A stretch of 39,849 bases of DNA from Rickettsiales bacterium (GTDB lineage: Bacteria; Pseudomonadota; Alphaproteobacteria; Rickettsiales; SXRF01): NCBI GenBank assembly GCA_005792635.1, contig SXRF01000123.1, forward strand, positions 1 to 39,849, in the 5' to 3' direction. Positions 22,672-31,872 of the stretch are shown one piece after another. Made by a program: the position numbers and the translations under genes. Numbering within the stretch: the stretch's first letter is position 1; each line of letters starts with the position of its first letter. The notes below the pieces were generated by a model. It saw only the letters and a list, made by a program, of their open reading frames with translations, searched no databases and was not told the origin of the DNA.

Positions 22672-23535
22672 TTAAAAAGCCGCTTTTACCATAACAGAAC
22701 AAGCTAGGCTGGTGTCTGTTAAATTATATTCAGAAGCAATAGTTACACACTCTGGATTATTACTATTATCACCCAAGGTTAGAATATCATCTGATTGCGG
22801 TATAAACATGGATACCACATTTCCAGACATTGGCTTCCCATCATCAATTTTTACATCTATATTGTAAGCATCGGAAGTGGACATACTAATGCTAGTGGCA
22901 TTTATATATCTGAATGTATTTACTATCGAGGAAATATCAGAAATTATATAACGGTTAGCCCCCATATAATGGGTGACAGTAATAAATTGTCCATTGCCCA
23001 GCTTTGCCTCTGGCAATCTGGTGTTCGGTGTACCATTAGATATAGCTTGATTATCTAGATCTGCACCATACGAACCTTCAATAATATTTGCATCCGACAG
23101 ATGACGAAAAAACATCGCCATCTCACCTTGGTACTTATAAACGACCTGATTAGTACCAACCAATTTTTCTCCTATTAAACCATCCCCATTATCGTCAGTA
23201 ATCAATCTTGAATAATCTAAATCCTGAGCAATGGAACTTGCAGTGTATAAATCCAAACTTATAGCATCATCCCTTAATATATCTCCCGGAAGCGCATTAT
23301 ATTTTAAGCGAAAAGCTGTTGCCGCTGAATTCAATTTTTCAAGCTGCGTAACCTGCGAACGAAGCTGTGCTGAATGTATTAAGTCCTGCCCAACCAGAAC
23401 TCCTCCAACCACTAAGCCTATAATTACCAGAACTATGGAGAGTTCAATAAGAGTAAAGCCAGCTATTTTTATAAAAATATTAGCGTTTACAGAAGGTTTA
23501 TGTCTCATATTTTGTATATCCTTTGCCTTCTTCAA
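22672..23535 (-). CDS. type II/IV prepilin-like protein (pseudopilin)
   Basis: [29 protein letters not shown]-terminal methylation/cleavage motif; YNALPGDI. Confidence 0.88.
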
Positions 23536-28399: not shown

Positions 28400-28434
28400 A
28401 AACCCTGCGGAAAGAAAAACTCTCCGCAGGGTTT
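28400..28434 (-). terminator. Rho-independent terminator of the rpsB-tsf operon
   Basis: Perfect 12-bp arms aaaccctgcgga / tccgcagggttt just after the tsf stop, with a T-rich tail on the minus strand. Confidence 0.85.
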
Positions 28435-28440
28435 ATCAAA

Positions 28441-29631
28441 TTAAGCAGCAGCAACCCCAGAAGCAGCGGCAACTTCCGCCGCGAAATCGCTGGTGTTTTT
28501 CTCAATACCTTCGCCAAGGCGGAACGAGATAAATTCGCTGATTTTTATGCTTGCGCCAACATCTTTGCTCGCAGCTTCCACAGCTTGTGCCACTTTGCTC
28601 TTTCCGTCAATAACAAAAATTTGCTCTTCAAGAACGCTTTCTTCAAAAAACCGCTCAACTTTAAGGCTCGCCAATTTTTGCTTAATCGCCGCATCATCGC
28701 CATAAGAGCGCATTTTTTTCAGCATATAAGCAGCTTCTTGGAAGAATACATCCAGAAGTTTTTTGGTTTTTTCAGCATTTTGCTTTTCTTTGCGGTCTTC
28801 ACTCACGCTACCTTTGGCGTAGTCAGCGAGCAACTCGTCAACATTTGGCAGAGTTTGCGAAAGCTCGGTTAGTTTTGCTTCAAAAACTTTTTCCGAAAAC
28901 GCGCGGTCGCTGGTCATTTTTTCTTTGTATTTAGCAACGGCATTTTCAAACACCACAAAAGCGTCAAAGAATTTAGCCGATTGCGCAGCAGCCGCCGCTT
29001 GCTCATTTGCAATATCTTTTTCGGTTATGTCGGATTTGCGGAGATATTTCGGGTTAGACGCCGCAATATGCATCGCCAGTTGCTTGCCAAAACCTTCCAG
29101 CTTTGCCGTGTCCCCTTCGGATTCCAAGCCAACGAGAACCGCGATTTTGCCCATGCCCGCCGCCACCGCGCCGTGAACATAAGCCGCAACCACACCTTTG
29201 CTAACTGAAAGTGTCGCACTACGACGCAGAGAGATTTTTTCGCCAATGGTGGCAATCGCGCTGGTTACTTCCGCTTCAGTGCTGGTTTTTAGCGCATCAA
29301 AATCATGCCCGTTATCAAGAGCCATAACCGAGATTTTGTTGGTAAGAGCTTGGAATTGTTCGTTACGCGCCACAAAATCAGTTTCCGAATTCAGCTCAAT
29401 CACCGCCGCTTTGCCAGCCTTGGAAGCAACCGCCACCAAACCTTCAGCCGCCACGCGGTCAGATTTTTTAGCCGCAGCAGACAAGCCTTTTTTCTTCAGC
29501 CACTGGGTAGCTTCTTCCATATTGCCAGCATTTTCAACTAACGCTTTGCGGCAATCAAGCATCCCCGCACCTGTTGCTTCGCGGAGGGTTTTAATCATTT
29601 CAGCGGTTATAGTTGTTTTTTCTGTGGTCAT
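28441..29631 (-). CDS. tsf: elongation factor Ts (with extra internal segment)
   Basis: ITAEMIKTLREATGAGMLDCRKALVENAGNMEEATQWLKKKGL, NSETDFVARNEQF, SEFISFRLGEGIEKNTSDFAAEVAA; 396 aa versus ~280-310 aa typical. Confidence 0.96.
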   Translation of the reverse strand: MTTEKTTITAEMIKTLREATGAGMLDCRKALVENAGNMEEATQWLKKKGLSAAAKKSDRVAAEGLVAVASKAGKAAVIELNSETDFVARNEQFQALTNKISVMALDNGHDFDALKTSTEAEVTSAIATIGEKISLRRSATLSVSKGVVAAYVHGAVAAGMGKIAVLVGLESEGDTAKLEGFGKQLAMHIAASNPKYLRKSDITEKDIANEQAAAAAQSAKFFDAFVVFENAVAKYKEKMTSDRAFSEKVFEAKLTELSQTLPNVDELLADYAKGSVSEDRKEKQNAEKTKKLLDVFFQEAAYMLKKMRSYGDDAAIKQKLASLKVERFFEESVLEEQIFVIDGKSKVAQAVEAASKDVGASIKISEFISFRLGEGIEKNTSDFAAEVAAASGVAAA

Positions 29632-29669
29632 GTTTTTTGTTCCTTTTTTCTTAACATTTCAAAATATCA

Positions 29670-30539
29670 TTAGTTTCGTGCTGCTCCAACAAACATAACA
29701 GCACGATTATACTCGCCATCCCCAACAATAATTTCTTTCTTCCCTTCTCGTGCACGGTGGTACATAGTGTCCCATAATACCAATGTTCCAGGCTGCAAAT
29801 CAACAGATATCATATGATCTGATACTGCATTTTCAAATATTTGTTTATCGCCATCAGATGGATTTTCTAAAGCAAATCCATGAGCTGCCACTGTATTGTC
29901 ATATCTAAGTGCATTTATTCTACTCTCCAATTCACTAAGCGTTATAGAATTAAACACCCCAAAAGCTGGCATAGGTTTTATTTTTAGTCTGTTCTTTAAG
30001 TCACTTGATAAACTTGCCAACATAGCTTCCATATTAACAAATTGTGTTTCTGCATGAATCGGATTATGCATAGCGGATAATATGGAAACTGGATTTCTAT
30101 CACGATGCACCAAATGCTCCCTATGGGGGTCGTTTTGTTTTCGCAAAAGAAATTTTCCTCGTGCAAACTCACATCCAGTTGCTTCTAATATCCCACGCGA
30201 CACCCAAAACTCCATAGAATGATTTAACGAGCTAACAGGTTCTTTCTGCACTTGCTTTGCAAAACCATTCTCCCAGACCGTTTCTGGCAGATTATGAATT
30301 ATAACAGGAGCATCAATTTTTCGATCCAAAACATCTTTTATTTTCTCCAAGATCTCCGATGGTATAGCTTCCACTATCAAACTAGCCAATTCTCTAATAT
30401 CCACATTTGCAATATCTCGGTCAATATACGGAAGCAATCCTTTCCTAAGAAGTTCCTTTTGCTCGTTGCTCAGGGAGAACTCACATAACTCATACGCTGG
30501 AGATCCTCGTGTCGGTTCATCTTTCTCAATCATTTTCAC
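29670..30539 (-). CDS. putative Fe(II)/2-oxoglutarate-dependent oxygenase (TauD/clavaminate synthase-like)
   Basis: 289 aa: DAPVIIHNLP; EHLVHRDRNPVSILSAMHNPIHAETQFVNM (HxD at 145-147 plus AET); LQPGTLVLWDTMYHRAREGKKE...YNRAVMFV (distal H261, downstream R279). Confidence 0.6.
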   Translation of the reverse strand: MKMIEKDEPTRGSPAYELCEFSLSNEQKELLRKGLLPYIDRDIANVDIRELASLIVEAIPSEILEKIKDVLDRKIDAPVIIHNLPETVWENGFAKQVQKEPVSSLNHSMEFWVSRGILEATGCEFARGKFLLRKQNDPHREHLVHRDRNPVSILSAMHNPIHAETQFVNMEAMLASLSSDLKNRLKIKPMPAFGVFNSITLSELESRINALRYDNTVAAHGFALENPSDGDKQIFENAVSDHMISVDLQPGTLVLWDTMYHRAREGKKEIIVGDGEYNRAVMFVGAARN

Positions 30540-30550
30540 TCTAAAAACAA

Positions 30551-31438
30551 CTATTTCTTGCTTTTCTTAACAGTAACAGTTGGTGCTTTTTTTGCTGGAG
30601 CAGCTTCTGCTTCGCCGCCTTTGCGAGCGCGAGATTTTTTATTGTTCGCTGCGTCCGCTTCGTCCTTGCCTTCGGTGGCAAGTGCGCTTAAATCGGTGAT
30701 TTTTTCACCAGCATTTTCCAACGCCCCCATGTCACGGCCAGACTTGCTCATGCTTTGACCGATACCAGCAACCACAGCATCAGAAACAAGCTTGCAATAC
30801 ATGCGGATAGCGCGGGTTGAATCGTCATTCCCCGGAATTGGATAAGTAATCCCCTCTGGGTTGCAATTGCTGTCGATAATAGCAACGATAGGTATGCCCA
30901 ATTTCTGCGCTTCTTTAATCGCCAAATCTTCTTTATTGGTGTCAATAATGAAGATTAAATCAGGGCGACCGCCCATATCCTTAATCCCGCCCAGCGAGCT
31001 TTCCAGCTTGTCGCGCTGGCGGCTCATCGCTAGCAATTCTTTTTTGGTAAAACCAAGATTTTCGCCTGTAAGTTGCTCATCAAGCTTACGCAAAGTGCGG
31101 ATAGAAACCTGAATCGTTGTCCAGTTGGTAAGCAACCCACCGAGCCAGCGTTCATTGATGTAATACTGACCGCAGGTTTTAGCCGCTTCGGCAACCAAAT
31201 CAGTAGCTTGGCGTTTCGTGCCAACAAACAAAATACGCCCATTTTGCGCCACAACATCGCGCACTGCCGCGAGTGCCGCGTGCAGCATAGGAACAGTTTT
31301 GCCAAGATTGATAATGTGAATATCGTTGCGAGTGCCGTAGATATACGGAGCCATGCGCGGATTCCAGCGTTTGGTTTTGTGACCGAAATGAACGCCAGCT
31401 TCGATAAGCTCGCGCATGTTAAATGCGGGTAGAGACAT
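30551..31438 (-). CDS. rpsB: 30S ribosomal protein S2
   Basis: [43 protein letters not shown]..., [31 protein letters not shown]; start MSLPAFNM at 31438. Confidence 0.97.
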
Positions 31439-31777: not shown

Positions 31778-31872
31778 CTTGTCACCCCGCATTTATTGCG
31801 GGGTCTGGATTAAAAACAAGAGAAAAGCTATGCTTTTCTTCCCAGATGCCGCAACGAGTGCGGCATGACAAG
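31778..31872. repeat. intergenic palindromic repeat element
   Basis: cttgtcaccccgca...tgcggcatgacaag outer arms, inner hairpin agaaaagctatgcttttct; same family as the elements in cobG and cobN. Confidence 0.8.

Follow-up and report, generated by a model that had tools for sequence, protein, structure and literature searches.

The genes for ribosomal protein S2 (rpsB) and elongation factor Ts (tsf) form a nearly universal pair, and the presence of a further gene between them in a Rickettsiales bacterium (assembly GCA_005792635.1) raises the question of what this gene encodes and whether its position bears on its function. The window analyzed here, a stretch of 39,849 nucleotides from contig SXRF01000123.1, carries an intact open reading frame (ORF) on the same strand as both neighbors (Table 1). 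A search of the literature on insertions between rpsB and tsf found nothing. On the basis of the comparisons described below, we consider it quite probable that the ORF encodes a standalone TauD/TfdA-fold Fe(II)/2-oxoglutarate (2OG) oxygenase that was acquired recently into the rpsB-tsf spacer and acts on a small molecule.

Table 1. Features of the rpsB-tsf region in window coordinates; residues of the ORF protein are numbered from the GTG start.
Feature	Position	Strand	Evidence and remarks
Intrinsic terminator 3' of tsf	28400..28434	-	Hairpin with dG -28.6 kcal/mol (z -5.4) and a T run behind it
tsf (EF-Ts)	28441..29631	-	Pfam PF00889 EF_TS, E=1.3e-45; 396 aa; downstream gene
ORF-tsf spacer, 38 nt	29632..29669	-	AAGGA leader kept; strong rpsB-tsf hairpin of relatives missing
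Divergent TauD/TfdA-like Fe(II)/2OG oxygenase ORF (predicted)	29670..30539	-	Family profile, hhalign to canonical TauD, ScoE
Arg279, presumed 2OG carboxylate-binding Arg	29703..29705	-	Invariant in 9/9
His261, putative distal metal ligand	29757..29759	-	Invariant in 9/9; aligns with the His of TauD MHRA
Thr165, equivalent of the 2OG-contacting Thr (predicted)	30045..30047	-	Invariant in 9/9; aligns with TauD TxF; known TauD structure
HxD motif, His145-Arg146-Asp147	30099..30107	-	His in 9/9, Asp in 7/9 homologues; aligns with TauD WHxD
rpsB (ribosomal protein S2)	30551..31438	-	Pfam PF00318 Ribosomal_S2, E=1.4e-93; upstream gene in operon

Read from the GTG codon at 30539, the predicted protein has 289 amino acids; the ATG at 30533, which is preceded a few nucleotides upstream by GAG and yields 287 amino acids, is the more likely start. 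The rpsB stop codon occupies 30551-30553, leaving on that side a spacer of 11 nt if translation starts at the GTG and of 17 nt if it starts at the ATG. ORF, Pfam and spacer coordinates thus agree with an earlier note on this DNA, which had placed the ORF 11 nt after rpsB and 38 nt before tsf, and the terminator that it had proposed after tsf is a real hairpin with a T run. Neither of the spacers flanking the ORF contains a terminator-like structure, and promoter-like matches over the rpsB-ORF-tsf region are at chance level. Together with the common strand and the short spacers, these features make co-transcription of the ORF with rpsB and tsf plausible and, given the strong terminator that follows tsf, transcription starting at the rpsB promoter is expected to read through and express the ORF. 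The assembly is fragmented (128 contigs), so that the ORF might have been joined artificially into the operon, but the tsf leader and the two gene boundaries are intact, the flanking genes match those of the genus at ~80%, and the ORF is present only once in the genome; such a chimera appears very improbable.

No gene-sized insert between rpsB and tsf was found in any of the 16 nearest relatives, in 127 other genomes of the order or in 75 named alphaproteobacterial loci, three comparison sets that overlap. In the 16 nearest relatives having rpsB, tsf lies within 127 nt and the gap contains no ORF; 127 nt is also the largest gap among the 75 alphaproteobacterial loci. Among the 128 genomes of the order with adjacent rpsB and tsf, the gap of 922 nt in the window is the largest, followed by one of 536 nt, a value that is overstated, as the rpsB C-termini were not aligned throughout. 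Gaps of 271-536 nt were compared by length alone. The synteny comparison that the earlier note had proposed therefore reveals no relative, among those examined, that shares the insertion, and this includes sister species with S2 and EF-Ts proteins ~80% identical to those of the window.

Several further features of this locus and its relatives can be recorded. The rpsB-tsf spacers of 13 relatives from the same family (L007-L019), 71-127 nt in length, contain a strong hairpin (z from -2 to -8) of unrelated sequence that differs in almost every genome and possibly represents dispersed palindromic elements or attenuators; in the window genome the ORF stands at the place of this hairpin, and the spacer has no such structure. 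The palindrome CCCCGCAATAAATGCGGGG, located at 31785-31803 of the window, is dispersed in the genome, with 25 sites at up to 2 mismatches compared to 1 for the reversed control pattern, and L017 also has a copy in its rpsB-tsf spacer. In G162, G163 and G164, three genomes that belong to one genus (g71), rpsB and tsf occur in swapped order, ~8-9 kb apart. The EF-Ts of the window contains an insertion of ~89 residues (roughly positions 220-308) that is common to three genomes of the same genus and missing in other relatives, with full-length matches of ~60% identity in G324, G325 and G327, which belong to one genus of another family.

The composition of the ORF sets it apart from its surroundings. 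Its GC content is 39.0% and its GC3 30%, compared to means of 48.3% and 47.9% for the 30 other genes of the window and to a GC content of 47.5% for tsf and 48.6% for rpsB. The range of 33-38% given for the ORF in the earlier note is about right for parts of it, but the flanking genes are close to 48% rather than reaching 60%. With z about -2.6 to -3.1, the ORF ranks second lowest of the 31 genes in both GC and GC3 and lowest in codon-usage score. A gene at 22672-23535, whose N-terminal sequence reads as prepilin-like, has values below those of the ORF (GC 36.8%, GC3 28.8%). The atypical composition, combined with the absence from all relatives examined, makes horizontal acquisition likely, as the earlier note had suggested; the ORF would be a recent gain of one gene between rpsB and tsf, postdating the split from those sister species that have been sequenced.

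A search of 348 genomes of the order identified eight full-length homologues of the ORF protein in four other genomes (one each in G052 and G007, two in G014 and four in G022), ~290-340 amino acids long and 19-23% identical to the protein of the window. Of the four copies in G022, two divergent ones form a tandem pair at the end of a contig (L071, 8570-10360). Close homologues were absent from a pattern scan of genome and viral contigs, tblastn against phages and plasmids detected no homologue, and a profile search across the phylum (299 genomes, E<=1e-5) recovered the genome's own copy only. The matches from a class-wide search were all canonical TauD proteins and covered the catalytic half; within the order such proteins are rare, the Pfam cut-off being passed in 4 of 107 relatives. 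A partial match in G141 (L028) was rejected as a family member, since this sensor-kinase-like frame matches at the N-terminus only. The enzyme would belong to a subfamily that is sparse, extremely divergent and known from a few genomes of the order.

TauD binds its metal through His99, Asp101 and His255 and contacts 2OG through Thr126 and Arg266. Alignment of the nine members of the family, at ~20% identity, leaves only five invariant columns (His145, Thr165, Gly251, His261 and Arg279), four of which map to these catalytic positions. All of the elements noticed earlier are present in the ORF protein, namely His145-Arg-Asp147, A163-E-T165, His261 in PGTLVLWDTMYHRA and the downstream Arg279; His145, Asp147 and His261 most likely hold Fe(II), and Thr165 and Arg279 2OG. 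The metal triad, the loss of which in homologues would according to the earlier note have counted against an oxygenase, is retained throughout the family in its two histidines but not in its aspartate: in two members (L004 and L027) HxD is replaced by HxH (HKH and HQH), with the other invariant residues kept, and not every member of the family need be a normal oxygenase. This variation among relatives, the strain-specific occurrence and atypical composition of the ORF, and the lack, in the collections searched, of a close homologue that could show conservation would all be compatible with a degenerate, inactive TauD-like passenger that has no selected function and was caught soon after insertion. 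We regard such a passenger as improbable, because long neutral drift would not preserve an open frame of 289 codons with all of the family invariants and the Asp ligand. Overall, the evidence favors an Fe(II)/2OG oxygenase that works or did so until recently.

The assignment to the TauD fold group emerges primarily from profile comparisons. By itself, the ORF protein has no match in PDB, NCBIfam or PHROGs and is only a subthreshold hit for the Pfam TauD family (PF02668; E=0.0012, 19.2 bits, below the gathering cut-off of 27 bits), which a single homologue (L005) passes with 32.3 bits. When the nine-member alignment was compared by hhalign to 17 canonical alphaproteobacterial TauD proteins, the two were matched with 98.3% probability (E=2e-14, 135 columns), a score that is somewhat favorable, as the 17 proteins were chosen because the alignment matched them, although all are unmistakable TauD; a seven-member version of the family likewise gave 98.3%. 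In this register the HxD, TxFxNM, GxLxxWD and distal His elements are aligned. Among solved structures, a profile search of PDB gave ScoE as the best relative (E=1.1e-4), along with a TfdA-like protein (1.6e-4). The N-terminal ~120 residues of the ORF protein have no match and are unlike the TauD N-terminus, and an AlphaFold2 model generated from the single sequence had a pLDDT of 35. Taken together, the family invariants and the profile-profile comparison bear out the TauD/clavaminate-synthase-like enzyme postulated in the earlier note: membership of the TauD/TfdA Fe(II)/2OG oxygenase superfamily (clavaminate-synthase-like) appears fairly secure, and the sequence profiles predict a double-stranded beta-helix fold.

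The location of the ORF, with its probable co-transcription with rpsB and tsf, led the earlier note to raise the possibility that the enzyme hydroxylates a component of translation. A dedicated oxygenase of S2, EF-Ts or EF-Tu, retained in the operon for that reason, would have a precedent in YcfD, a bacterial 2OG oxygenase that acts on Arg81 of ribosomal protein L16 (PMC4295552), but enzymes of the YcfD type form another subfamily, which has dimerization and winged-helix domains (PMC4295552). Furthermore, all sister species lack the ORF despite their similar S2 and EF-Ts, and its composition indicates recent acquisition. None of the eight other homologues is located at rpsB-tsf; their neighbors are unrelated genes and include purK/pheT, an SDR gene with a class-III aminotransferase gene, carbonic anhydrase, exo/endonuclease, ppa and hppA on either side, and the gene for a BKACE enzyme, among others. 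The proposal thus does not hold up well, and we judge a translation-directed role highly improbable; were translation its target after all, the enzyme would represent a new ribosomal-oxygenase subfamily, but the evidence just described speaks against this.

The very low identity among the copies, and the presence of several divergent ones in a single genome, could alternatively reflect an arms race in which the enzyme is exported or injected, for example as a type IV secretion substrate, and acts on other cells. Deep-branching flagellated Rickettsiales do encode the rvh type IV secretion system (PMC9352585). However, neither a secretion signal nor an effector domain came to light, the neighboring genes are housekeeping genes, and PADLOC returned no defence-family or other meaningful match, so that this explanation appears very improbable. 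A broader proposal, which we consider unlikely, is that the nine standalone TauD-fold proteins constitute a family not described before that diverges fast and has an N-terminal half of its own and an HxH branch. Its genes would move singly between Rickettsiales-related bacteria and settle within housekeeping operons or next to them, and the enzymes might be exported or serve in competition.

Most TauD-fold enzymes have small-molecule substrates, and a substrate of this kind is the best guess for the ORF enzyme as well. The ORF most likely encodes a strain-specific oxygenase whose gene came to lie in an operon with strong transcription and which would carry out hydroxylation or a related C-H oxidation of a small molecule; the insertion site is probably explained by tolerance and strong expression rather than by a role in translation. 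The surprise is in the address of the gene, the enzyme class being already known and unsurprising. Even the rpsB-tsf pair, it appears, can accept a foreign metabolic gene, and a divergent branch of 2OG oxygenases, missed by Pfam, NCBIfam and PHROGs, is added for Rickettsiales-related bacteria.

With the ribosomal oxygenases YcfD/RoxA the ORF protein shares only the Fe(II)/2OG oxygenase class, with no sequence match, and searches of Pfam, NCBIfam and PDB gave no JmjC or prolyl-hydroxylase match of the YcfD or EF-Tu prolyl hydroxylase types. Clavaminate synthase and the L-arginine and L-asparagine oxygenases would belong to the same superfamily, but the profile search provided no evidence of membership at the subfamily level, the clavaminate synthase-like matches being non-significant and limited to the C-terminal part (1drt, E=0.85; 4m23, E=1); clavaminate synthase has HxE, whereas the ORF protein has HxD. 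ScoE, an isonitrile-forming Fe(II)/2OG enzyme (PDB 6dch), shows profile similarity across the catalytic half, at the superfamily level only, and the ORF is not surrounded by a biosynthetic gene cluster. Compared to TauD, the N-terminal region of the ORF protein lacks the GAExxGxDL and HxVLVxRxQ segments, the distance between HxD and Thr is shorter and the overall score is under the Pfam cut-off, but the HxD, the Thr, the FxNM segment, GxLxxWD and the distal His follow each other in the same order as in the TauD/TfdA family.
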